This document shows, piece by piece, positions 8,311 through 60,926 of a DNA stretch of 60,926 nucleotides; within the stretch, counting starts at the first letter, position 1; every line of letters begins with the position of its first letter. Under the pieces are notes generated by a model that searched no databases, was not told the DNA's origin, and saw only the letters and a program-made list of their open reading frames with translations. Origin of the DNA: an uncultured Clostridia bacterium (GTDB lineage Bacteria > Bacillota > Clostridia > Oscillospirales > Oscillospiraceae); assembly GCA_945915065.1 (NCBI GenBank), contig CAMEER010000006.1:1-60926 (forward strand). Reading direction: 5' to 3'. The position numbers and the translations under genes were made by a program.

Positions 8311-10212
8311 ATGGACGCGACAAAAAAGAACTTCAACGGTGCCGTGATCTTCCGGTGGGTCGCTATCCTGATGGCACTCTACCATCTGGTGACGTGTATT
8401 GTCGGTATTCCGGCATCCCAACTACACCGTGCGGTGCACCTGCTGCTGGCGTGTGTGCTGACGTTCGGCTGCTTCAACTTCAAGGGGAAAAAGAACAACG
8501 GAAAACTCGACATCGCAGACTGGCTCCTGATCGTTGCCACCGTTTTTTCCATGGGTTACCTGGTGGTAGAGAACAGAGTTTTGGAAAATCGCATCGCCTT
8601 CGTTACGCCGTTTTCCACCATACAGTATACCGCCCTGATCCTGATCGTTGTGCTGGTTTTGGAGGCTACGCGCCGCCTGACCGGCCTGACGTTACCCATT
8701 GCGTGCCTCGTCTTTTTGGTCTACGCCTTTTGGGGCGATAAGCTGCCCGGCGTGCTGGGCCACTCGCACCTGACGGCAAAGCGCATTCTGGAACAGATCT
8801 CTATCACCAGCGAAGGTATTTTCGGCTCCTCTCTGGGTATCAGCGCCACCTATGTTGTCATATTTATCATCCTCGCTGGCTTCCTAGAGACCACCGGCGC
8901 GGGTCAGTTCTTCATCGACCTGGCTTCCAGCGCCACCGGCACAAACCGCGGTGGCCCCGCGAAGATCGCCGTCCTGGGCAGCTGTCTTTTCGGCTCCATC
9001 TCCGGCAGCTCCGTGGCCAACGTGGTGTCTACCGGCACTTTTACCATCCCCCTGTCCAAGAGCGTGGGCTACCCCTCTTATTTCGCCGGCGCTGTGGAGG
9101 CCGTTGCCTCTACCGGCGGACAGCTCATGCCGCCCGTCATGGCGGCCGTGGCGTTCATCATGGCGGATAACCTTGGCGTGCCCTATATCAGCATCTGCGG
9201 CGCGGCCTTGATCCCTGCTGTCCTCTATTACTGGAGTCTCTTCACCATGGTGGATGCCAAGGCAGTGAAGCTGGGCATCGCCGGCTTGAAGAGGGAAGAG
9301 CTTCCCAAGGGCCGGGAGGTCCTGAAGAACGGCTGGTATCTGGCACTGCCCTTCGTGGTCCTCATCGCCCTGCTGATGCTGAACTATACGCCTATGATGG
9401 CCGGCTTCTTCGCTGTCGTGTCGCTGCTGGTCATTCTGCTGATCTTCAACCGCAAGAAGCTGAACTGGAAGACCATTACCAATGCCTTGGAGAGCGGCGC
9501 AAAGGGCGTTATCAGCGTCTCCGTGACCTCCGCCTGCGCCGGCATCATCGTGGGTGTCATCATGATCACCGGCCTCGGCCTGAAATTCACGTCCATCATC
9601 ACCACCGTTTCCAACGGCAACCTGCTCATCGCGCTGATCCTGTCCGCGGTAGTGGCGATCATTCTCGGCATGGGTCTGCCCACCGTCCCGGCGTATATCG
9701 TCATGTCCTCGCTGGTGGCTCCCGCCCTGATCAAGATGGGCGTAGCGCCCATGGCGGCCCATATGTTCGTGCTATACTTCGCGGTGCTCTCCTGCATCAC
9801 GCCTCCGGTGGCCATCGCCTCCTACGCGGCGGCGGCCATTGCCGATGCCAACGCCATCCGGGTGGGCTTCGAGTCCGTCCGTCTGGCTGTAGTGGCGTAT
9901 ATCATCCCCTTCATATTCGTATACAACCCCGTGCTGCTCTTTGAGGGCGCACCCATCGACATCTTCCTCTCCTTTGCCACCGCCGTGCTGGGCTGTATGG
10001 CCCTGACGTGGGCGATAGAGGGCGTCGTGGAAGGGAAGATACCGTGGTGGGCCCGGATATTGTCGCTGCTGGCGGCGGCGTTCCTGGTCTGGCCGGAGCA
10101 CCTGTCGGATGTGTTCGGCGTGGTGATCTTCGCCGTACTCTATTATTTCTATCGCCATAAGGTCAAAAAGCAGCAGAAAGTGCTGCCTGTTACAGAAAAT
10201 TTGGAGGAATAA
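8311..10212 (+). CDS. TRAP transporter fused DctQM permease
   Basis: A 633-residue membrane protein in which the small DctQ-like part (about 1-140, four helices) is fused to the large DctM-like translocation part (about 150-590). Conserved DctM text is seen: GSISGSSVANVVSTGTF, then MPPVMAAVAFIMAD and MGLPTVPAYIVMSSLVAPAL. Transport is sodium- or proton-driven in this family. The fused form is the usual partner of TAXI receptors, matching the gene directly upstream. The start has AGGAGA at proper spacing; the next gene begins 3 bases after the stop. Confidence 0.95.
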   Translation: MDATKKNFNGAVIFRWVAILMALYHLVTCIVGIPASQLHRAVHLLLACVLTFGCFNFKGKKNNGKLDIADWLLIVATVFSMGYLVVENRVLENRIAFVTPFSTIQYTALILIVVLVLEATRRLTGLTLPIACLVFLVYAFWGDKLPGVLGHSHLTAKRILEQISITSEGIFGSSLGISATYVVIFIILAGFLETTGAGQFFIDLASSATGTNRGGPAKIAVLGSCLFGSISGSSVANVVSTGTFTIPLSKSVGYPSYFAGAVEAVASTGGQLMPPVMAAVAFIMADNLGVPYISICGAALIPAVLYYWSLFTMVDAKAVKLGIAGLKREELPKGREVLKNGWYLALPFVVLIALLMLNYTPMMAGFFAVVSLLVILLIFNRKKLNWKTITNALESGAKGVISVSVTSACAGIIVGVIMITGLGLKFTSIITTVSNGNLLIALILSAVVAIILGMGLPTVPAYIVMSSLVAPALIKMGVAPMAAHMFVLYFAVLSCITPPVAIASYAAAAIADANAIRVGFESVRLAVVAYIIPFIFVYNPVLLFEGAPIDIFLSFATAVLGCMALTWAIEGVVEGKIPWWARILSLLAAAFLVWPEHLSDVFGVVIFAVLYYFYRHKVKKQQKVLPVTENLEE

Positions 10213-10215
10213 GCT

Positions 10216-11091
10216 ATGGGTTTGATCGATCTGCACGTACACGCGGGCCCCTCCGTTATGCCCCGGGAGCTGGACGGCGTGGATATGTATAAGGAGGCTG
10301 TGGCCGCCGGCTACTCCGCCTATATCATCAAGGATCACTATTTCCCCACCATGATGAGTGCGGAGAACATCTCTCGCAACATGGGCAACGGAAAGTGCCG
10401 GGTCTTCGGCGGTCTAGCTCTGAACAATTCCGTGGGCGGCCTGAATCTCAAGGCGGTGGACGCCGCCTGCGCGCTGGGCGCCAAAATCATCTGGATGCCC
10501 ACCGTCTCAGCGCTCCGCCACAAGATCATGCACAGCGGCCACGGGCTGGCCTTCCCCGGCAGCAAGGGAATGAGCGTAGAGGAAAAGCCCATCATGTACC
10601 TAGACGACAACGGTGAGCTGCATCAGGATGTCAAAGGCATTTTGGCGTATTTGGCCAATAAACCCGATGTGATCCTGGGCACCGGCCACGGCAGCCGCGA
10701 TGAGATCGACAAGCTGATCCGCGAGGCTGTGAACACCTACGGCATCCGGCGCATCCTGGTGAACCACCCTCACTATATGATCGGCGCCAGCATGGACGAT
10801 ATCGAGTCTTGGGCTAAGCTGGGCTGCTATATCGAACTGAATGCGGTGGCCTTCGTGGAGGGCTCCCACTTCAAGTCCAACGATATCTCCGAGGCCAAGG
10901 AGATGATCTGCCGCTGCGGCCTGGACAGAATCGTGATCGACTCCGACTATGGTCAGAAAAACAACGGCAGCCCCGTGGCCGGCGTAGCGAAGTTTATCGA
11001 GCTGTTGCAAAGCGCATGCGGTCTGACAAACGACGACATCCGCCGCATCGGCGAGACGAACCCCGCCTGGCTGCTGGGATTGGAACTTTGA
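10216..11091 (+). CDS. DUF6282-like metal-dependent hydrolase
   Basis: A 291-residue TIM-barrel protein of the amidohydrolase/PHP type. Metal-ligand candidates are HVH in GLIDLHVHAGPS (residue 7 onward), the histidine in IIKDHYFP, H in TGHGSRDEID, VNHPHYM and the aspartate in IVIDSDYGQ. I recognise it as similar to proteins annotated DUF6282, whose reactions are not established. In this operon it may open a cyclic amide, lactone or ester before the aldolase step (inference). It begins 3 bases after the permease stop with its own GGAGG, and the cupin follows. Confidence 0.75.
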   Translation: MGLIDLHVHAGPSVMPRELDGVDMYKEAVAAGYSAYIIKDHYFPTMMSAENISRNMGNGKCRVFGGLALNNSVGGLNLKAVDAACALGAKIIWMPTVSALRHKIMHSGHGLAFPGSKGMSVEEKPIMYLDDNGELHQDVKGILAYLANKPDVILGTGHGSRDEIDKLIREAVNTYGIRRILVNHPHYMIGASMDDIESWAKLGCYIELNAVAFVEGSHFKSNDISEAKEMICRCGLDRIVIDSDYGQKNNGSPVAGVAKFIELLQSACGLTNDDIRRIGETNPAWLLGLEL

Positions 11092-11121
11092 CAAGCCAAA
11101 AGAAAGCTGAGGTATAAAACT

Positions 11122-11454
11122 ATGTATAATCACGCAAATTGGGATACGCTTCCCTGGACGGACGTGCGCCCCGGCGTGCGCCGCAAGGCGTTCACCGGCG
11201 AGGGAGCCACTATCGCCCTGAACGAGCTTCTGCCGCACCATGAGCCTCGCCCCCACAAACACCCCCACGAGCAGATTGCTTACATCACCGCCGGCCAGTG
11301 CGACTATCACATCGAGGATCAGGTATTCCGCCTAGTTCCCGGCAGTATGCTGGTGATTCCCCCCAACGCCATGCACTACGCGGAGGTGGTTGGCGATGAA
11401 GTGCTGATCAACATCGACATCTTTACGCCTAAACGCGAGGAGTACGTAAAATGA
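11122..11454 (+). CDS. Small cupin-domain protein
   Basis: A 110-residue single-domain cupin. Cupin motif 1 is seen as HHEPRPHKHPHEQIAYITAG with several metal-binding histidines and a glutamate, and motif 2 as PGSMLVIPPNAMHYAEV. Such proteins are isomerases, epimerases or binding proteins for small acids and sugars. Its stop overlaps the aldolase start (ATGA), so the two are co-translated. It probably acts on an intermediate of the operon pathway; no specific reaction can be assigned. Confidence 0.88.
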   Translation: MYNHANWDTLPWTDVRPGVRRKAFTGEGATIALNELLPHHEPRPHKHPHEQIAYITAGQCDYHIEDQVFRLVPGSMLVIPPNAMHYAEVVGDEVLINIDIFTPKREEYVK

Positions 11455-12203
11455 TCTCGGCGGATTTCAAGCAGAAGATATACGGCAAAAAGCCCCTGCG
11501 GGGCACCTTTGTCAAGATGAACTGTCCCACGGCCATCGAGGCTTTGGGCCTCGCCGGCCTTGATTTCATCATCATCGACGGTGAGCACGCGCCGCTGGAC
11601 GAGATGCACCTGGAGTCTATGCTGCGAGCGGCGGACTGTGTGGGCTTACCCGTGGTGGTGCGTGTTCCCGTGGCGGATGAATTCCACATCCTCAAGGTGC
11701 TGGACATGGGCGCCGCCGGCGTGCAGATCCCCGGCCTTACCTCCACAGAGGAGGTACGAGCCTGTCTGGATGCCGCTCTGTATGCCCCCGAGGGCCATCG
11801 CGGCCTGTCCTTTGCGCAGCGCTCCGCCCGCTACGGCACCATGGATAAGTTCGAGTATATGCGCTTTTCCAACGATAATTTGGTCAAGGTGTTCCATGTT
11901 GAAAATCGCGAAATGGCAGAGCGCGCCGAGGAGCTGTGCCGGATCAAGGGCGTGGACGTTCTGTTCATCGGTCCCATGGATCTGAGTCAGTCTTTCGGCC
12001 ACCCCGGCGATCCCTCCAACCCGGAGGAGCAGGAAGCCATCCGCCGCATCATTGAAGTAGCGGCGCGGTATGACGTTCCCGTAGGCATCTTTGTTGGCAC
12101 TGCGGAAGCCGCAGCCAAATACGAGGCCATGGGCGTGCGCTATATCGCCATCGGTTCCGACGTCAGCTTCCTGATGAACGGAGCGCGGAAGGCCCTTACA
12201 TAA
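11451..12203 (+). CDS. HpcH/HpaI-family class II aldolase
   Basis: A 250-residue metal-dependent aldolase of the HpcH/HpaI family, which cleaves 4-hydroxy-2-oxo acids to pyruvate (or a similar keto acid) and an aldehyde. Recognisable blocks are GTFVKMNCPTAIEALGLAG, FIIIDGEHAPLD (base region), PVVVRVPV, AAGVQIPGL with the conserved active-site neighbourhood, and DVLFIGPMDLSQSFG (metal and phosphate-side loop). It would be the last carbon-releasing step of the operon, sending product into central metabolism. The gene overlaps the cupin stop by 4 bases and is followed by a strong terminator, marking the operon end. Confidence 0.93.
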   Translation: MISADFKQKIYGKKPLRGTFVKMNCPTAIEALGLAGLDFIIIDGEHAPLDEMHLESMLRAADCVGLPVVVRVPVADEFHILKVLDMGAAGVQIPGLTSTEEVRACLDAALYAPEGHRGLSFAQRSARYGTMDKFEYMRFSNDNLVKVFHVENREMAERAEELCRIKGVDVLFIGPMDLSQSFGHPGDPSNPEEQEAIRRIIEVAARYDVPVGIFVGTAEAAAKYEAMGVRYIAIGSDVSFLMNGARKALT

Positions 12204-12291
12204 CAGATCAGGAAATTTCTTAAATCCTCTCTTCCTTCCCCTATCTCCTCACAGGAGGAGGACCCCGCCATCACGACGGTTTCGCAATCGA

Positions 12292-12329
12292 CCCGGAGCA
12301 GGCAAGTCCTGCTCCGGGCCGCCTTTTTA
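12292..12329 (+). terminator. Terminator of the TRAP/aldolase operon
   Basis: Arms CCCGGAGCAGG and CCTGCTCCGGG with a 5-base loop, followed by gccgccTTTTTAT. Confidence 0.85.
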
Positions 12330-12339
12330 TATCCGTGCC

Positions 12340-12640
12340 TCAGGATTTGACGTTGGCGGCGGTCTGGGAGGCCAGATAATACTGCCCATCGCCGCCCAAA
12401 TAGTAGATGTCCTGTATGAAGCCGTGGAGGTCATATTCCTCCTTCGTGTTGTGCCCGGCCAGCGTGATGCCGTATTGCTGGGCAGGATCGATATCCTCTC
12501 AGCTGTTAGGCCATCCTCCGTCAGGTCGCCGCCCTTCTCAATGGTCCGGTTCAAGTTCGCGTCATAGCACACCACGGAATTGTCCTGCATCCAGCTGGGA
12601 ACATAGACCGTCTTTACCCCGGAGGATGCGTCCTCCGTAC
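12340..12640 (-). pseudogene. C-terminal fragment of an unknown protein
   Basis: On the minus strand a readable protein tail (VKTVYVPSWMQDNSVVCYDA ... LAGHNTKEEYDLHGF ... YYLASQTAANVKS) ends at the TGA at 12340. A frameshift near 12500 joins the two halves. There is no start: the upstream end runs into a sigma-factor fragment on the opposite strand near 12640. The protein looks like the tail of an extracytoplasmic or lipoprotein-type protein after a low-complexity linker (PPAADSTEDASS); its family is unknown. Confidence 0.5.
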
Positions 12641-51794: not shown

Positions 51795-52142
51795 GGGGGC
51801 GTACTGGTTTCGACGGGGGTGTGGAGACCGGATAAGCGGGCGGTGGCGCCTGACCACCATACAACGGGCAAATTAAAATTAACTGACAACACTAACACTG
51901 TTGCCGTCGCTGCTTAAGCAGTGACCGTCTGAACCGGAGCGGCCACCGGCCGGGGAAGGCGTCGTTAAGGTGGCGTCCGTGAGGCAGGTAAGAGTTGCCC
52001 TGCCCACGCATCATGACTCTACTGAATCGCCGCGTCTGTTGCGTGCCGCGTCGAGGAGGGAATGTTCAAATCGTAACTGCGCCCGGAGAAAGTCCTGTTG
52101 AAGCGCTTTCGGACAGGGGTTCGACTCCCCTCGCCTCCACCA
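51795..52142 (+). ncRNA. ssrA: Transfer-messenger RNA (tmRNA)
   Basis: 348 bases. The 5' end GGGGGCG pairs with 3' CGCCTCC to form a 7-base acceptor stem ending in ACCA; TGGTTTCGACGGGG is the tmRNA D-loop-like signature and GGTTCGACTCC the T-arm. The tag frame reads AAATTAACTGACAACACTAA onward to GTTGCCGTCGCTGCTTAA, that is ...KLTDNTNTVAVAA-stop, preceded by GGC or ACG as the probable resume codon. It works with SmpB, encoded just upstream. Its 3' end is a common integration site, and accessory DNA begins immediately after it. Confidence 0.96.
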
Positions 52143-52568: not shown

Positions 52569-52961
52569 TTATCCTGACAGATTTTCGCCCGCCTCCTTCG
52601 GGCGGATCAGCTTTGCGTTGGACGGGTAATTGAGCGTGATCAACGCTGGCTTTCCAAGGCCCTGTTTCTTTCGGCAGATCAATCCGCTATATTCCAATTC
52701 TCGGAATATGCGTGTAACACACTGCCGACTTCGATGCAGTTTCTTCTGTGCCTGTTCTACGGTGAAGTAGAGACGGATTGTGCCGTCTGCCTCTATGAAT
52801 CCGTTAACCTTTGAAATGCTGGCTCTGTCCAGCATAAGCGCATACAGCACCTTTGCATCGTTGGATAGATCCGCAAGGCTGTCCTCCATAAGAAACCGTG
52901 GGAACGGTATGTACGATGCCGAAAGGCTCTCTGTAGTAAATCGTAAAAAATTCTGTGTCAT
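52569..52961 (-). CDS. RepA_N-type replication initiator (N-terminal domain)
   Basis: A 130-residue protein matching the winged-helix N-terminal domain of replication initiator protein A: FLRFTTESLSASYIPFPRFL, LSNDAKVLYALMLDRASISK, then a regulatory-wing region LHRSRQCVTRIFRELEYSGL and RKKQGLGKPALITL. Full RepA_N plasmid proteins are about 300 residues; this short form ends after the domain, as in some integrative elements. GGAGG lies before the ATG at 52961. It may direct replication of an excised element, or be truncated. It lies with mobC upstream on the same strand. Confidence 0.85.
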   Translation of the reverse strand: MTQNFLRFTTESLSASYIPFPRFLMEDSLADLSNDAKVLYALMLDRASISKVNGFIEADGTIRLYFTVEQAQKKLHRSRQCVTRIFRELEYSGLICRKKQGLGKPALITLNYPSNAKLIRPKEAGENLSG

Positions 52962-53193: not shown

Positions 53194-53523
53194 TCATAGT
53201 TCCGCCCTTTGCGACTGCTTGAGTAGTTCCCAAATTTCACACTGTTTCGCTTTCAACTCGACGATATCATCCTGATAGAAATGCCCTGTCTGATTGATAC
53301 GGCGGCAGATCTGGTTGATGTTTCCTGCAACTCGGCTGACGGCAGCAGCCAGTTTCTTTTGCTCGGTGTAATCCACTTTGATGATATAGCCGTCGATCGC
53401 CATCTTGCGTAGATAGGCTCCCATGTTATGGGTGCCGAGCTGCGCCATCTTTTGTTGTATGAGTTTCTTTTCCTGTTCGGTGACGCAGAACTCAATGCGT
53501 ATTGGTCTTGTTCGGTCTGCCAT
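53194..53523 (-). CDS. mobC: MobC-type relaxosome accessory protein
   Basis: A 109-residue protein of the bacterial mobilization (MobC/ribbon-helix-helix) family: IRIEFCVTEQEKKLIQQKMA, GTHNMGAYLRKMAIDGYIIK, then AVSRVAGNINQICRRINQTG. MobC helps the relaxase open the DNA at oriT. In intact elements mobC precedes a MobA relaxase; here the sequence goes into the iteron-like region and repA with no relaxase. GGGAGTG precedes the ATG. Confidence 0.9.
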   Translation of the reverse strand: MADRTRPIRIEFCVTEQEKKLIQQKMAQLGTHNMGAYLRKMAIDGYIIKVDYTEQKKLAAAVSRVAGNINQICRRINQTGHFYQDDIVELKAKQCEIWELLKQSQRAEL

Positions 53524-53810: not shown

Positions 53811-53968
53811 GAAAGTCCCAAACCCTTGATTTCTGAATTGGAAATTCTTTCTGAACTTCGCGGGAAACCTATTGATTTTATTCGCTAATCGGACTATAAT
53901 ATATAATGATTTATTGTAACTACGATCAGGCTAACAAGCTGAGAGGACAGACCGGGAGGGCTGCAACC

Positions 53969-54166
53969 ATGAAGTATCTTTCTGTCCCGCAGACCGCCGA
54001 GAGGTGGGGTATCTCATCACGGCGCATACAGATATTGTGCAACGAGGAACGCATACCGGGTGCGGTGAAAATCGGCAACAGATGGGCAATCCCTGATGAT
54101 GAGCCGAAGCCCGCAGACGCGAGAATCAAAAGCGGAAAGTACGTTAAGAAGCCCACTAAAAATTAA
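53969..54166 (+). CDS. Helix-turn-helix DNA-binding protein
   Basis: A 65-residue protein: MKYLSVPQTAERWGISSRRI at the N-terminus (HTH_17/MerR-like), QILCNEERIPGAVKIGNRWA as the wing, and a basic tail. GGGAGG lies 9 bases before ATG 53969. Proteins of this shape commonly precede restriction or toxin cassettes and may act as a controller of the Mod-Res genes 170 bases downstream, or be an excisionase. Confidence 0.75.
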   Translation: MKYLSVPQTAERWGISSRRIQILCNEERIPGAVKIGNRWAIPDDEPKPADARIKSGKYVKKPTKN

Positions 54167-54334
54167 AAATGAGCTGCAGACAATAGCGACTCTAACTCGA
54201 AATAGCAGCGCGCATTCCACCTCGCGGGTGCGAATTGACGCATCAGGATCAGCGGGCAAATTTAGTCCTTCCGATACGGGAAAGGTCATTCACGACAATA
54301 GTTTTACAATGTCTGACGTATGGAGGAAATCAGT

Positions 54335-56449
54335 ATGGCAGCGATAAACGATCTCATTCGACAGATTGAGGATAAATATTTGCGCGACCGCTTACAGCAG
54401 GAAGTGGCGCGTTTGAGCAAACAAAAAAAGTTCGGGCTTGTGTTTGAGGATCACATTCCCGAATGTACGCCGCTGTATGGCGTAGCTGTCCGCAAGGGAT
54501 CGCTTGTTGCGGTTAAGGGAGAGGACATACGCGATGTATATTTTGTGTCCGCGATCTCTGACGGAAGGGCAGCAATTGTCAATAAAGCCACAGGCGAAAA
54601 GAGCGAGCGTCCGCTTGATACTCTCGTTGCTGTGGCGCAATTTGGCGAGCCTATTTTTCCGTCCCTTATCCCGATGGACAGCGTAGAAAATGCACCCGAT
54701 AGCAACTTGTGGCATACGCTGATCGAAGCTGACAATTTCCATGCGTTGCAGCTTTTGGAATATCTCTATCCGAAACAGGTGGATTGCATTTACATAGACC
54801 CGCCCTACAACACAGGAGCGCGGGATTGGAAATACAACAACGACTATGTAGACTCCTCTGATAGCTATCGTCACAGCAAATGGCTGTCTATGATGCAGCG
54901 GCGGTTGAAAATCGCAAAAAGGCTGCTCAATCCCGAAAACTCGGTGCTAATCGTCACCATTGATGAAAAAGAATATTTGCATCTTGGCTGTCTGCTTGAA
55001 GAAATGTTCCCCGAAGCGAGAATACAGATGATCTCGACTGTTATAAATCCTAAAGGCAATAGACGAGACAACGAGTTTTCTCGCTGTGAAGAATACATTT
55101 ATTTTATCTATATTGGTGCTGCCGCTATCATTTCCAATGGTACAGATATGCTACGTGAAGTGGAAGAAGATGAAATAGGAGATAGCAAAGACAAGTCTGT
55201 ACGGTTGAGAGCGTTGTTAAGACAGGCAAGCAATCATGGAAAGCGTACAGATCGTCCTAATCTATTCTATCCGCTTCTTTTTGAAAGCAATACAGGAAAG
55301 TTTGTCGGTCACGGACCTGTCCTTGATATTGCCGAAGATAGAAACAGCTACATGCCCCCCGAAGGAACTGTGGCTATGTGGCCTATTGGAGCAAATGGAA
55401 CAGAGCTTACTTGGAACTTGCAACCCGCGACATTAATGGATAAGCACCGTCAGCATTTTTTGAGTTTTGGGCGTTGGGACGGCGATAAAAGAACGGGCTA
55501 TTATTTATCGGAAGGTCAGGAGGAAAACTTCAAGAAAGGTCTCTATAATGTTGTAGGGCAAGATCAGGATGGTGCATATATTATTGAACTAAAATCCGCT
55601 GAGGATAGAGATGTTCGCCCAATGACTATATGGCATAAGAAATCACATTCTGCAAGCGAATATGGAACTACACTGCTCAACAACATTTTCCACGATCGGC
55701 GGTTTTCATTCCCGAAGTCACTATATGCTGTTCGTGACACTCTGCGGTTTTTCGTTGCGGACAAGCCTAATGCACTCATCGTTGACTTTTTCGCAGGCAG
55801 CGGCACAACGCTTCATGCAGTCAATCTTCTCAACGCAGAGGACGGCGGCAATCGCCGCTGTATCTTAGTAACAAATAACGAAGTATCCGATGACGAGGCG
55901 AAAGCTTTAAAAAAGCAAGGCTATCAGACGGGGGACGAAGAATGGGAAAAGCTCGGTATCGCCCGATATGTCACCTGGCCGCGGACGGTATGCAGTATTA
56001 CAGGGCAAGATGTAAACGGCAACCCGCTGAAAGGCGAATATCTGGGCAGTGAGATTTCTATGAGTGACGGTTTTGCCGCCAATGCGGAGTATTTCAAACT
56101 CGGTTTTTTGGATAAGAGCAGTGTTGCCCTCGGTCAGCAGTTTCGTGAGATACTTCCTATGCTTTGGCTGAAAGCGGGCGCGGTTGGCAAGCGTCCTGCC
56201 CTTGCCGATGGAGAACTGCCCGATATGTTGATCCCTGAAAGCAGCAATTTTGCGGTGCTGATCGATGAACGTTATTTCGGTGCATTTTTGGCTGAAATAG
56301 AGGCGCGTCCCGATATCGAGTATGTTTACCTTGTCACCAACTCAGAGGACGCATACAGGGAAATGGGATCGCGGATCCGCACCCGAAATGTGACACAGCT
56401 ATACAGGGACTATATTGATAATTTTGTTATCAATAGCAGGAGGATTTGA
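54335..56449 (+). CDS. Type III-like DNA methyltransferase (Mod), N6-adenine type
   Basis: A 704-residue modification subunit. The catalytic motif IV VDCIYIDPPYNTGARDW lies near residues 150-165 (DPPY 155-158) and the AdoMet motif I VDFFAGSGTTLHAV near 483-496, so the order is that of beta-class adenine methyltransferases such as EcoP15I Mod. A roughly 250-residue target-recognition region lies between. It would methylate a short asymmetric site and give Res its specificity. ATG 54335 is preferred over 54320 because GGAGG precedes it by 8 bases. Its stop lies 2 bases before the res start. Composition is less GC-rich than the housekeeping part, indicating transfer. Confidence 0.93.
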   Translation: MAAINDLIRQIEDKYLRDRLQQEVARLSKQKKFGLVFEDHIPECTPLYGVAVRKGSLVAVKGEDIRDVYFVSAISDGRAAIVNKATGEKSERPLDTLVAVAQFGEPIFPSLIPMDSVENAPDSNLWHTLIEADNFHALQLLEYLYPKQVDCIYIDPPYNTGARDWKYNNDYVDSSDSYRHSKWLSMMQRRLKIAKRLLNPENSVLIVTIDEKEYLHLGCLLEEMFPEARIQMISTVINPKGNRRDNEFSRCEEYIYFIYIGAAAIISNGTDMLREVEEDEIGDSKDKSVRLRALLRQASNHGKRTDRPNLFYPLLFESNTGKFVGHGPVLDIAEDRNSYMPPEGTVAMWPIGANGTELTWNLQPATLMDKHRQHFLSFGRWDGDKRTGYYLSEGQEENFKKGLYNVVGQDQDGAYIIELKSAEDRDVRPMTIWHKKSHSASEYGTTLLNNIFHDRRFSFPKSLYAVRDTLRFFVADKPNALIVDFFAGSGTTLHAVNLLNAEDGGNRRCILVTNNEVSDDEAKALKKQGYQTGDEEWEKLGIARYVTWPRTVCSITGQDVNGNPLKGEYLGSEISMSDGFAANAEYFKLGFLDKSSVALGQQFREILPMLWLKAGAVGKRPALADGELPDMLIPESSNFAVLIDERYFGAFLAEIEARPDIEYVYLVTNSEDAYREMGSRIRTRNVTQLYRDYIDNFVINSRRI

Positions 56450-56451
56450 CC

Positions 56452-58974
56452 ATGAGGGAAAAACTATTCGGATTTCAGGAGGACGCACTCTCTGATCTCC
56501 ATAAACGCATCAACAGTGCGAACAGTATGCTCCTGTCTGACGCAGAAGAACAAGTTATCATTTCTTTCTCTGCCCCCACAGGATCGGGTAAGACCATTGT
56601 GATGACTGCGCTTTTTGAGGACATATTTTTCGGTTCGGCTGAAACACAGGGCGATCCCGACGCTATTGTTGTATGGTTGTCCGATATGCCCGAACTCAAC
56701 GAGCAGTCCCGCCGCAAAATCGAGAGCAAATCCGATAAAATCCGTGTCCGCAACATTCACACCATCGACTCCGTTTTCGACAGCGAAACCTTGGAGTGCG
56801 GCAATATCTACTTTCTGAACACACAGAAGCTCGGCAGTGATAAGCTGCTGACGCATAAATCGGACAAACGACAGTATACCATCTGGGAAACGCTGACCAA
56901 CACGGTGCGGGAGTATAAGGGCAAGCTGTACCTTGTCATTGACGAGGCGCACAGAGGCACGAATGTTTCCGCAAAAGCCGAAAATGCTGCAAAATCCATC
57001 ATGCAGAAGTTTATCATAGGGAGTGCACCGGACGGCTTATGCAAAATGCCCCTTGTGATTGGCGTTACCGCTACCCCTCAGCGTTTTCATAAGCTGATCG
57101 AGAATACCGAGTCCCCCGAACTCAAAGTGATTATCAAGCCCGAAGATGTTCGTGATTCCGGGCTGCTTAAAGACCGTGTTGTGATTCACTATCCCGAAAT
57201 CGCCATCAATGCCGATATGACGATGTTTCAGGGCGCGGTTGCAAGTTGGCAGCGCAAAGCGGAGCAATGGGCGCAGTATTGCGAAAAAGAACGCGAGGAT
57301 AAGACTGTCAAGCCCGTCCTTGTTATTCAGGTTGAGGACGGCAACGATAAGATCGTCAGCAATACGGAAATTGAATCCTATCTTGCCATGCTTGAAACAC
57401 AGCTTGGGCGTCCCCTTGTGAACGGCGAAGTTGTGCATTGTATGGACAGCAAGAAGCTGCTGACCGTTGGTACATGGACGATTCCCTACATGGAAGCGTC
57501 CCGCATTGAGGAAAGCGATCAGGTTAATTTTGTCATTTTCAAAATGAGCCTTTCCACAGGCTGGGACTGCCCCCGCGCCGAGGTTATGATGTCGTTCCGC
57601 AGCGCACAGGACTACACCTATATTGCGCAGCTTTTGGGGCGCATGGTGCGTACTCCATTGGCGCGGCGTATACCGTCCAATGACGAACTGAACGAAGTCA
57701 GCCTGTTCCTGCCCTATTACAACGAACAGACCGTGAAAGAGGTTGTGGACGCGCTGAACAGCGGCGAGGACATTATCCCCACCGATACCGTCACCAACCG
57801 TACCGGTGTGACCTATTACCAAGATCCGCAATTTGCTGATGTATTCGCGGATATGGATGGCAAATTGATTACATACCGCATTGAAACGGCGCGTAAAATC
57901 ACGTCTTTGCGTAGGCTCATGCAGTTTTGCCGCGCTATCAAGGACGATATGATCGATATCAATATCCACCATGATATGCAGAAATCCATTGTACAGCTTA
58001 TGGCGGATGAAATCGAAAGTATCAAAAATGCAGGTGAATACGACGCGCTTGCACAGGCGATCACAGGCTTTAATCTGAAATCGCTGACTTTTGATTATGG
58101 CGATAACGCCTATCGCGTGGACGAAGCTGACCACATGATCGTGACCGAATTTGACATTGACCGATATTTCAAGGTTGCGGGTAAAAAACTCGGTGACGGT
58201 TTGGATTATGCCTACTGGATTTTCAAACATAATCAGGGGATTGATGATAAGGACGCGAAAATTGAGGTTGTTGTGCTGGCAGGGCATAATGACGCTATGC
58301 AACGTATCAACGATTGGTGCGAGGACAAGTTCGCGGAGCTGTATAACAAATACCGCGCCAAAATCGGCAAGCTGAACGATGCTCGGCGTATTGAGTATGA
58401 ACGCCTGTCTGACGCTACCGACAGACCGCAGGATATAGATTGGCACTTGCCGTCAAGCGTGGGCTTTACCGTAGGTGAGGACAGCCGCGCTTATGATAAG
58501 CACATCTATATCGCACAGGACGGCACTTTCCAAACTACGCTCAATGCATGGGAACATGATCTGTTGCTTGAAGAAATCGGAAAAGGCGCGTATGCGTGGC
58601 TGAGAAATCTTGACCGCAAGCCCTGGTCTCTCTGCATCCCTTATCGGAGCGCGGGAAAGATTCTTCCCATGTACCCCGACCTGCTTATCGTCGAAAAGGA
58701 CGGTGAGGATTATTCGTACAGTATCTTGGAGCCGCACGATCCGAGCCGCACTGACAATGTGGCAAAGGCGGTTGGCTTAGCCGAGTTTGCGGATAAGCAC
58801 CAATTTACCTATAACCGTATTCAGCTTATCCGAAAGAAAATGGGCGCAGACCGCAAGGAGCATTTCTACCGCTTAGATATGGCGAAGGTGCAAGTGCGGA
58901 ACAAGGTCAAGGCGATCACTGATAACGCAGCTCTGGACGCGCTATTTGATACGGATGCAGATGTGGACGTATGA
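56452..58974 (+). CDS. Type III-like restriction subunit (Res), SF2 helicase
   Basis: An 840-residue protein. Walker A SAPTGSGKT at residues 40-48, DEAH box in LVIDEAHRGTN (near 163), motif III-like GVTATPQ (near 203), helicase C-terminal text FKMSLSTGWDCPRAEVM and a motif VI-like QLLGRMVRTPLARR. The last 130 residues hold a nuclease-like end: YPDLLIVEKDGEDYSYSILE (near 740) followed by PHDPSRTDNVAKAVG. This gives PD...E-x-H in place of the PD...ExK of classical Res proteins. It follows Mod by 2 bases (AGGAGG inside the mod end), so translation is coupled. Confidence 0.92.
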   Translation: MREKLFGFQEDALSDLHKRINSANSMLLSDAEEQVIISFSAPTGSGKTIVMTALFEDIFFGSAETQGDPDAIVVWLSDMPELNEQSRRKIESKSDKIRVRNIHTIDSVFDSETLECGNIYFLNTQKLGSDKLLTHKSDKRQYTIWETLTNTVREYKGKLYLVIDEAHRGTNVSAKAENAAKSIMQKFIIGSAPDGLCKMPLVIGVTATPQRFHKLIENTESPELKVIIKPEDVRDSGLLKDRVVIHYPEIAINADMTMFQGAVASWQRKAEQWAQYCEKEREDKTVKPVLVIQVEDGNDKIVSNTEIESYLAMLETQLGRPLVNGEVVHCMDSKKLLTVGTWTIPYMEASRIEESDQVNFVIFKMSLSTGWDCPRAEVMMSFRSAQDYTYIAQLLGRMVRTPLARRIPSNDELNEVSLFLPYYNEQTVKEVVDALNSGEDIIPTDTVTNRTGVTYYQDPQFADVFADMDGKLITYRIETARKITSLRRLMQFCRAIKDDMIDINIHHDMQKSIVQLMADEIESIKNAGEYDALAQAITGFNLKSLTFDYGDNAYRVDEADHMIVTEFDIDRYFKVAGKKLGDGLDYAYWIFKHNQGIDDKDAKIEVVVLAGHNDAMQRINDWCEDKFAELYNKYRAKIGKLNDARRIEYERLSDATDRPQDIDWHLPSSVGFTVGEDSRAYDKHIYIAQDGTFQTTLNAWEHDLLLEEIGKGAYAWLRNLDRKPWSLCIPYRSAGKILPMYPDLLIVEKDGEDYSYSILEPHDPSRTDNVAKAVGLAEFADKHQFTYNRIQLIRKKMGADRKEHFYRLDMAKVQVRNKVKAITDNAALDALFDTDADVDV

Positions 58975-59036
58975 AATCAAATGTTTTTGTGTGCTGAAGC
59001 TTACCGCTAAATTGAGAGTCAGAGAGGATACTATAA

Positions 59037-60821
59037 ATGAAACAGGGTAATCTGGTCAAATGGAAAGATATTTCTGCGTGCAAAAATTTGTTGTTTTTTG
59101 CTCAGTTAGTTGATGAACTCCTTTTTGATTATTCTATTCCGTCTAATCGAATATCTACACTTAATAGCCATTATCTCTGTCTAGATGCCCTTAGCGCTAT
59201 AAATGGAATCGACGAACACGGTGTCCCGGAAGGAACGCTCAGGCCAATAGCCGAAGAATTGTATATTTCCCTGACAAAAGACCCCGCATTTGATCTTATT
59301 AATAACAGTCCTTTGAGATATTTTGTAAAGTACCAAAATGAGCGATACAGAATTAGCACTAGTGTTTCGGAGCTAAACTATGACGAGATCAAAAAGGCAA
59401 TATTGGCAATTGACTCGCGTTTCTTTGAAAATAACAAGTATTATGAGACATTAAAGACCAGAGTAATGGAGAAGATTCTATCCAATGAAGAATCGGATCA
59501 ACTTGATTTATTCAGACTTGTAAAATCATTGTTAACAGAGCTAATCAACTTGGGATACAGCCAAAATTACATCAAAAAAGTTATGTCTGACGTTTTCTGG
59601 AATTCAAATAGTGACATAGTATCGCCTAACGTGATTAATGACTTTTTCTCTGCGTTTACATTCGAAAAAAACAACTATACAGTAGTGTTCATTGTAAACA
59701 GAGGACGTATTAGTCAATTTACTGACCACATTGAGAACCTGTCCTGTATAGAAAGTTTTGAACAAAGGTATGAATCGCATGCAGAGAAGGTATTTTTACA
59801 GAAAAATAGGAATCAAGCCTATTTGATCATAGATCGAAAGGCTTTAGATCCATATCAAGCTGCCTATAGTGCTAGATTAACACTTTCTATCAATGCCTCC
59901 TTGTATCGATTAAACAACCATGACTATCGATATGACATTAATACCGCAAAATGCGGCGTGTATAGTGATTCGGAGTTTTTTAGAGCTGAGCAAGAAAAAA
60001 GTGCAGTATCGCATGTTAAAATGCCTTCTAGAGAACAAATCGTTAAGAATATGGAGGCTTTAGAAAAGGCTATCAACAATCAAAGATCTGTTCGAGAGAG
60101 AGTAGCGCTTATTAACGCGGCTCGTTTCCATTCACATTCTCTTGATAGTATCTCTATTGAGAATCAATTACTTGATTTGTGGGCAATTTTCGAATCAATT
60201 CTCGACATTAGTAACAAGCACACATCAGATAGAATTGTTCAAGTGTGTATGTATCTTGTTCCAATTTTGAAGCGCAGATACATTTATTCTCTGTTTTCTC
60301 AGTTTTCTATAGATTTCAAAAACTATAATGATGAGAAATATCGTGAAATTGTCGGTGATAGCACCGATGAGGCTGAGATAATCCAAAAACTGTGTGAATT
60401 TGTTGTGCTAAATGAACACAAAACTGATCGCGATTCTTTCTTGACACAATGCGGTGATTTTCCTCTTTTCAGGGAACGTATAGAGTATTACGAGAGTGTT
60501 TTCAGCACTCCGTATGATGTTTATCAGTTTGTTGAAAAACATGCGGAGAGAGTAAAGTGGCAAATAATGAGAATTTATAGGAATAGAAATCTGATCATTC
60601 ACAATGGTGATAGTATGCCTTATTTAGCACTCCTTGTTGAAAACCTTCATTCATATGTAGATGATTTCCTGAGTTATGTGATTCATGGTCTATCTACCGG
60701 ACATGATATCAACAGCTTGTGCCAAGAATTGTTTGCCAAAGAATGCGATTGGGTTGCAGATTTTTCAAATAGAAAGGCGGTAATGACAGCTGATGTAGTA
60801 ACAAAAATGCTTTCCATCTAA
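59037..60821 (+). CDS. Large AT-rich protein with C-terminal HEPN-like domain
   Basis: A 594-residue protein I do not recognise as a named family. Residues 1-330 are mixed alpha/beta without a known motif. Residues about 345-594 are helical; near 511-525 stands MRIYRNRNLIIHNGDSMPYL, an R-x-x-R-N-x4-H pattern like the RNase motif of HEPN domains (ApeA-like type), followed by a helix with aromatic residues (LLVENLHSYVDDFLSYVIHG). It is downstream of Res on the same strand, 62 bases away, with AGAGAGGAT before the start. GC content is clearly below that of mod-res. Likely an accessory or backup RNase effector of the restriction cassette (inference); a plain HEPN protein with another role is possible. 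Confidence 0.7.
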   Translation: MKQGNLVKWKDISACKNLLFFAQLVDELLFDYSIPSNRISTLNSHYLCLDALSAINGIDEHGVPEGTLRPIAEELYISLTKDPAFDLINNSPLRYFVKYQNERYRISTSVSELNYDEIKKAILAIDSRFFENNKYYETLKTRVMEKILSNEESDQLDLFRLVKSLLTELINLGYSQNYIKKVMSDVFWNSNSDIVSPNVINDFFSAFTFEKNNYTVVFIVNRGRISQFTDHIENLSCIESFEQRYESHAEKVFLQKNRNQAYLIIDRKALDPYQAAYSARLTLSINASLYRLNNHDYRYDINTAKCGVYSDSEFFRAEQEKSAVSHVKMPSREQIVKNMEALEKAINNQRSVRERVALINAARFHSHSLDSISIENQLLDLWAIFESILDISNKHTSDRIVQVCMYLVPILKRRYIYSLFSQFSIDFKNYNDEKYREIVGDSTDEAEIIQKLCEFVVLNEHKTDRDSFLTQCGDFPLFRERIEYYESVFSTPYDVYQFVEKHAERVKWQIMRIYRNRNLIIHNGDSMPYLALLVENLHSYVDDFLSYVIHGLSTGHDINSLCQELFAKECDWVADFSNRKAVMTADVVTKMLSI

Positions 60822-60849
60822 TAAAAATGAAATGTTCACAAAGAACTCC

Positions 60850-60888
60850 AAAATCCGGGTTGACTATATCCCGGATTTTGATTATACT
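60850..60888 (+). promoter_or_regulatory. Palindrome with embedded promoter (terminator or operator)
   Basis: Perfect arms AAAATCCGGG (60850-60859) and CCCGGATTTT (60870-60879) with a 10-base loop. A promoter TTGACT (60860-60865), 17 bases, TATACT (60883-60888) begins in the loop. The hairpin ends in TTTTG, so it can terminate the HEPN gene, and the same dyad could be an operator for the next gene. Confidence 0.7.
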
Positions 60889-60918
60889 ATTATTAACCCG
60901 AAAAGGAGGTTGGCTTCA

Positions 60919-60926
60919 ATGAAACA
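60919..60926 (+). CDS. Start of a further gene, cut by the window edge
   Basis: ATGAAACA is preceded by AAAAGGAGG at 9-base spacing and by the promoter at 60860-60888. Only the first two codons are visible; nothing can be said of the product except that it has its own promoter next to the defence cassette. Confidence 0.5.

Follow-up and report, generated by a model that had tools for sequence, protein, structure and literature searches.

The stretch of DNA analysed here (the window: 60,926 nucleotides, contig CAMEER010000006.1 of an uncultured Clostridia bacterium) closes with what its genes mark as a mobile DNA cassette beside the transfer-messenger RNA gene ssrA. In this cassette mod and res, a type III-like restriction–modification (R-M) pair, are followed on the same strand by apeA, which encodes a full-length homologue of the ApeA family of HEPN proteins. 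The reading to which we lean, somewhat beyond an even balance, is that two layered defences have been moved together on the cassette, with ApeA acting as a self-contained sensor and effector rather than as a fixed partner of the R-M proteins.

The gene after res encodes a divergent ApeA

The initial annotation had described an AT-rich gene of 594 residues starting 62 bases after res on the same strand, and had called its product unknown. The gene (apeA; 59037..60821, forward strand) is as described, with a GC content of 0.36 compared to 0.47 for mod and 0.50 for res, and the label of unknown protein can be dropped on the strength of full-length homology. When compared to solved structures with phmmer, residues 3–562 match Ec2ApeA (PDB IDs: 9hxd, 9hxi; E=2.3e-50), a second full-length match (residues 2/3–562/563) is to Ec3ApeA (E=9.5e-49), and Ec4ApeA is found at E=3.1e-7; a profile built from seven ApeA relatives (A1) also reaches Ec4ApeA and Ec1ApeA. 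ApeA had indeed been suggested as a family with which to compare the protein. We take the product to be a full-length ApeA-family homologue, for which roles as an RNase and in defence are predicted. In the part of the source available to us (PMC10952713), ApeA is counted among the HEPN proteins of phage defence, with reference to Gao et al. 2020.

The window protein shares with the ApeAs of E. coli (Ec1–Ec4ApeA; PDB IDs: 9hxb, 9hxd–9hxj, 9hxm, 9hxn) its homology over the full length, a similar length and a C-terminal HEPN motif of the form R-x4-H; it differs in being divergent and in adjoining a type III-like R-M system. It also belongs to a branch that curated models miss. No Pfam or PHROGs family matches it at E≤1, NCBIfam and PADLOC return weak, unrelated families only, and the PADLOC model for ApeA itself (PDLC02157) gives no match at E≤1. 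Applied to six other members of our ApeA tree, this model matches three (L006, L032, L033) and misses three (L002, L015, L055). The branch is thus beyond the reach of the Pfam and PADLOC ApeA models tried, and because of this the membership of the window protein rests on its homology to the solved ApeAs.

The HEPN catalytic motif (R-N-L-I-I-H, R517 to H522 of apeA) lies at 60585..60602. The annotation had noted an R-x-x-R-N-x4-H motif as in HEPN RNases; the motif is real but the spacing was off by one, as the stretch reads R512-IY-R515-N-R517-N-L-I-I-H522, which is the canonical R-x4-H formed by R517 and H522. Of the aligned rows, 25 span this position, the window among them, and all of these keep both residues (a 26th row is a fragment that lacks the site, and L034, L074 and L075 stand outside the alignment); a deposited Ec2ApeA chain (PDB ID: 9hxe) carries alanine at the arginine equivalent to R517. 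An AlphaFold2 model of the window protein, computed from a four-sequence alignment, reached a confidence score (pLDDT) of 41 and was not used; full-length homology to the solved structures speaks for a predicted HEPN fold. Most of the solved ApeA entries hold 10 or 12 chains, with an Ec2ApeA entry (9hxd) holding 2, and these chain counts suggest that ApeA is a large oligomer.

A second copy of the gene is found on a metagenomic viral contig (L004), where a full-length apeA is 95% identical to that of the window. The homology extends at the DNA level from 58496 to 60912 of the window (9461–11877 of the contig; 95.7% identity) and includes the junction of res and apeA, which disposes of an assembly artefact as its source. 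Comparison of the two copies gives a ratio of non-synonymous to synonymous rates (dN/dS) of 0.17, from 30.5 non-synonymous and 42.5 synonymous changes, and apeA is under purifying selection. Together with the phmmer homology and the second copy, this means that the 594-codon open reading frame (ORF) is not a chance one. All that the viral contig has of res is its last 158 codons, so apeA there has remained intact next to an incomplete res. After apeA this contig continues with an HTH_3 regulator (E=1.2e-17) and a DUF1016/YhcG nuclease gene; the window reaches only the first bases of the next gene (60919..60926, forward strand), which is cut by the end of the contig at base 60926 and which in the viral contig is the HTH_3/Xre gene.

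Three unrelated R-M systems precede related ApeAs

The comparison took in 27 distinct ApeA loci, the window included, most of them drawn from genomes, with two from genome contigs and six from plasmids among the 27. Every genome with an ApeA match in four draws (391, 398, 348 and 206 genomes) was examined, together with 3 of the 107 plasmid records from one search and all 3 from another; L004 and L042, one contig of the window's lineage, are counted together with the window. Five of the loci are weak (L034–L038, profile E-values 1.9e-6 to 1.1e-15; L034 in two pieces), L003 is a fragment, in L075 the sequence before apeA is limited to 582 bases, and L016/L056 and L017/L019 are near copies. Neighbours were read over about six ORFs on each side, with Pfam scans on part of them. 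ApeA of this kind is rare: draws from the class and from the phylum gave it in 6 of 391 and in 9 of 398 genomes, respectively, and two draws centred on relatives gave 4 of 348 and 4 of 206 (the draws overlap in some genomes). In the window's own family the only one of 250 genomes is its own, and the same holds in the genera of two relatives (G1123, 1 of 8 genomes; G361, 1 of 2). Phage records gave no match, nor did viral contigs searched with three other ApeA queries.

A methyltransferase with restriction or helicase partners lies upstream of apeA, on the same strand, in four of the 27 loci (4/22 without the weak ones). Apart from the window, these are L002, from a member of the Lachnospiraceae, with a C5 methylase, EcoRII and Vsr (an EcoRII-type system); L054, from a genome of the window's class, with an Eco57I-class methylase and a BsuBI/PstI endonuclease, where apeA is split over two ORFs; and L033, with an N6_N4 methylase, PglZ and an SNF2 helicase. 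Two more loci have a methylase on the opposite strand: an Eco57I methylase with a PLD/SNF2 helicase convergent to ApeA (L007), and a D12 methylase divergent to it with a GmrSD gene beyond (L038). In the remaining 21 we saw no methylase among the neighbours read, which were scanned with Pfam in part. Farther off, downstream of ApeA, L021 has an HNH gene at 5 kb and L020 a gene annotated as a restriction endonuclease at about 10 kb.

In a midpoint-rooted tree, for which the sequences of L003 and L054 were partial, the window groups with L004, L015, L002, L003 and L054 in a single clade with support 99/99. R-M genes stand upstream in four of these six rows (in L004 as the res remnant only), or in three of five lineages, and they belong to three unrelated systems, type III, EcoRII-type and PstI/BsuBI-type, each directly upstream of apeA and on the same strand. 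As to the others, the ApeA of L003 lacks its N-terminal half and lies beside an integrase-like gene (judged by eye), and no R-M genes were seen in L015. The ApeAs of L002 and L054 share 66% identity across 433 aligned residues and yet adjoin type II systems that are unrelated to each other; their R-M partner was therefore exchanged or acquired separately.

To put this in proportion, 65 genomes of the class were scanned for N6_N4_Mtase, and 41 of them have matches above the cut-off, in some 97 pieces by our own count of rows, or at most about 1.5 per genome. At that density any one gene would be expected to have a member of the family within 5 kb in less than 1% of cases, a figure that covers one methylase family, found in 2 of the 4 loci, and ignores the clustering of defence genes.

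Other neighbours of ApeA deserve mention in their own right. A Schlafen AlbA_2 gene lies directly upstream in L055 (6914–10342) and L056 (7452–10595), and L016 (8148–12382) has AlbA_2, then an FRG gene, then ApeA; together these make a second candidate partnership of ApeA. In L015, whose ApeA is the closest relative of the window's outside its own lineage, an ORF of 254 residues (11613–12377) starts on the last base of the ApeA stop codon and has a weak match to uracil-DNA-glycosylase (E=0.003, below the curated cut-off). A weak ApeA relative lies near subtilase and AAA ATPase genes in L036 (9118–19297), in surroundings that thus include a peptidase.

mod and res appear to form a complete type III-like pair

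The annotation had also recognised a type III-like pair in the two genes before apeA, and on this point we concur. The first, mod (54335..56449, forward strand, with a further in-frame ATG at 54320), encodes a predicted beta-class N6-adenine DNA methyltransferase of 704 residues that matches PADLOC MTase_III (PDLC03645, E=1.1e-166 over residues 1–699) and Pfam N6_N4_Mtase; the order of its motifs, DPPY at 155 and then DFFAGSGTT at 484, is that of a beta-class Mod adjoining Res, as in type III systems. The second, res (56446..58974, forward strand), encodes a predicted restriction helicase-nuclease of 842 residues (Pfam ResIII, E=1.1e-13); its TTG start overlaps the mod stop by 4 bases, and an ATG is possible at 56452. 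Walker A, DEAH, TATP and QLLGRMVR motifs are all intact in Res and are largely kept in 13 relatives, which are 31–56% identical to it (one of 29 plasmid and one of 2 phage records matching Res are among those examined; a genome with a Res fragment, G393, was left out).

With systems of the EcoP15I/EcoP1I kind the pair thus shares the order of Mod and Res, the 4-base overlap, the MTase_III and ResIII matches and the helicase motifs, and parts of Mod match the Mod chain of EcoP15I (PDB ID: 4zcf, E=1.8e-19). It differs from them in Res, which scores weakly with PADLOC REase_III (best 7.3e-12), finds no solved structural relative at E≤0.1, and ends in PD...SILEPH (around 58675–58758), with a histidine in place of the lysine of PD-(D/E)XK. 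This ending EPH is common to the window and 12 of the 13 relatives, L052 having DPH; where 12 of the 13 have an aspartate the window has a serine, as does L052. A nuclease end with EPH for EXK in most members of such a subfamily is a noteworthy departure in itself. With all the main motifs in place, neither gene can be regarded as broken, and the two appear to make up a complete type III-like pair that is predicted to cleave DNA.

Related pairs keep varied company. In the three closest (L044, 2401–5477; L045, 2941–5997; L051, 2365–5615) genes resembling an ABC-three-component (ABC-3C) system stand directly upstream of mod, namely a CTD11 protein, a small protein and a DUF2326 ABC ATPase (by Pfam in L044, and judged from the beginnings of the proteins in L045 and L051). 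After res we find McrBC (L039), AIPR (L046) or KptA (L045). One of the three closest pairs is on a phage genome (PV036457), and a composite of ABC-3C and type III R-M is possible. In the KptA case, 18 bases separate a type III res from the RNA 2'-phosphotransferase gene that follows it (Tpt1/KptA; L045, 10634–11179), which is odd company for an R-M system.

The cassette lies at a variable site after ssrA

The gene content points to mobility. ssrA (51795..52142, forward strand), located with ARAGORN, is followed directly by the cassette, which comes with a putative RepA_N replication-initiator gene of a mobile element (52569..52961, reverse strand; E=5.2e-17) and a putative NikA/MobC-like mobilisation accessory gene (53194..53523, reverse strand; NikA-like E=2.2e-15, MobC E=3.1e-8). 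Between these and mod is a gene for a small helix-turn-helix protein (53906..54166, forward strand, alternative ATG at 53969), which the annotation had correctly placed before mod; it matches HTH_17 (E=1.2e-6) and an excisionase family (phrog_2655, E=3e-7), and could be a regulator or excisionase-like.

Within the genus, a 934-base stretch ending with ssrA is matched, wholly or partly, by 26 of 31 genomes, the window's own counted. In the seven congener stretches compared (L067–L073) the match to the window stops at the end of ssrA in every case, and no cassette is found beside ssrA in any of them, two of the stretches (L071 and L073) running only 775 and 22 bases past that point. The nearest congener (L067, with a flank 97.9% identical) has a recombinase gene after ssrA. 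As congeners carry other genes there, the site is variable in the genus. When the incomplete genome of the window was searched for a repeat of the ssrA 3' end, which might mark the other attachment site, the one match was ssrA itself. The five longer congener stretches (L067–L070 and L072) each have differing genes after ssrA.

Discussion

In the arrangement that we favour, Mod would methylate host sites, and Mod and Res together would cut unmodified DNA. ApeA, as the second layer, would sense a sign of DNA breakdown during infection, perhaps deoxydinucleotides, which according to the title of a 2026 preprint reportedly activate ApeA. Its HEPN sites, formed in the oligomer, would respond by cleaving RNA, and the host would be halted before it could produce phage. 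A position after an R-M system would let the two layers complement each other without ApeA binding Mod or Res, and ApeA might alternatively answer the breakdown of host DNA by the phage itself when restriction fails. That ApeA acts on its own is suggested by the majority of its loci, at which the neighbours read include no R-M gene, and a conserved contact with one R-M protein is hard to hold given three unrelated R-M systems upstream in a clade of support 99/99.

Several results count against a working link between the two layers. mod-res stands beside ApeA in one of the 27 loci (1/22 without the weak ones), and ApeA beside none of the 13 Res relatives (one of these, L044, ends 124 bases after res). 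The expected linkage between mod-res and the third gene is thus not borne out, homologues occurring mostly without mod-res, and a conserved three-gene system can be rejected, the second junction being known only from L004, which is of the same lineage and has a truncated res. On these counts chance may have brought mod-res and apeA together on a mobile element, and the GC content of apeA indicates that it was probably acquired separately from mod-res. On the tree, the loci with R-M genes upstream show weak clustering: in 48 of 500 shuffles no more changes were needed. Promoter-like sites in the region number 14, compared to 14.1 expected from shuffles, and terminator-like sites 5, compared to 6.9; as neither is commoner than in the shuffles, these sites do not bear out the single transcript that we suppose.

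If the genes are mere neighbours, they would be independent defence genes on one mobile element, perhaps with separate promoters, and this is the alternative that we take most seriously, even if we would not put our weight on it. Beyond the counts above, it accommodates the break in GC between res and apeA, the absence of the cassette at ssrA in the congeners compared, and the company of mod-res relatives (ABC-3C-like genes, McrBC, AIPR, KptA), which is that of an ordinary defence island. It sits less well with res and apeA lying 62 bases apart on one strand with no terminator-like site between them in a scan of the region, with a junction kept at 95.7% identity on a second contig, with three unrelated R-M systems at the same position in one clade, and with the density of one methylase family, which would place such a gene within 5 kb in less than 1% of cases; defence genes cluster anyway, which tempers the last point.

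A tighter link can be imagined, in which Mod or Res binds and silences ApeA until a phage anti-restriction factor disables the R-M system and frees it. The precedent is PrrC, silenced by a linked type I R-M enzyme (PMC3710099, PMC2610378), and a 2013 census of HEPN proteins proposes the same for R-M-linked HEPN genes (PMC3710099; both sources as far as their text was available). Related ApeAs, however, adjoin unrelated R-M proteins, most loci read have no R-M genes nearby, and the apeA of L004 persists with a remnant of res, where a freed toxin should do harm unless mod-res is elsewhere in the host; we regard such a guard as improbable. Least probable of all, in our judgement, is that the type III pair is dead or does not restrict (for instance, an epigenetic Mod with a non-cutting Res), which would leave apeA as the sole working defence gene. 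Such a loss could be read from the missing lysine and from the serine that replaces the aspartate of 12 of the 13 relatives; the EPH form, however, is that of the subfamily and not a lesion, the serine recurs in L052, and the helicase motifs are intact.

Within the layered reading, we put forward a more specific idea tentatively and consider it rather doubtful as it stands: R-M systems of any type would cut invading DNA, exonucleases would turn the products into deoxydinucleotides, and these would activate the ApeA encoded downstream, such that restriction, or overwhelmed restriction, dials up RNA cutting and growth arrest. As this relay needs no R-M protein to touch ApeA, any type of R-M system may precede related ApeAs. 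The coupling of restriction to ApeA through DNA breakdown is something that we infer.

The general concept of R-M combined with HEPN proteins is already known, and the locus is a composite of known kinds. The 2013 census lists ApeA/BMEI1217 as embedded in R-M operons in epsilonproteobacteria (PMC3710099, Table 1) and suggests that R-M and HEPN proteins make up a multi-pronged defence in the case of at least 16 HEPN clades, in the parts of that paper available. Those cases share with ours an ApeA-family gene beside R-M genes; here the systems are type III-like (window), EcoRII-type (L002) and PstI/BsuBI-type (L054), and the R-M type of the 2013 cases is not given in the text seen. The composite of a DNA layer and an RNA layer proposed in the annotation is plausible in this looser form, given the R-M genes upstream in L002 and L054 and the 2013 pairing; the specific trio with mod-res is not recurrent. 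PrrC–EcoPrrI, in which an anticodon nuclease is guarded by a type I R-M system, shares the encoding of a HEPN RNase with R-M and the logic of layered defence (PMC3710099, same parts). In contrast to PrrC, the window ApeA has no ABC-ATPase domain (no Pfam domain at E≤1) and is of another HEPN family; related loci also differ in their type of R-M system, contrary to what a fixed guard contact would lead one to expect. We found no paper on ApeA with type III R-M in the open literature searched, a search outside of which lay the figures of the 2013 census and most subscription papers. What is new is this branch of ApeA, the finding that R-M systems of three unrelated kinds precede it, and the idea of a relay, which can be tested.

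Counts of defence genes that rest on the PADLOC ApeA model or on Pfam would miss this branch. If restriction does feed ApeA by way of DNA breakdown products, a small molecule would connect innate DNA cutting to abortive RNA cutting, in contrast to the protein guard of PrrC, and the relay could be tested with the window cassette and two natural variants that carry other R-M systems.

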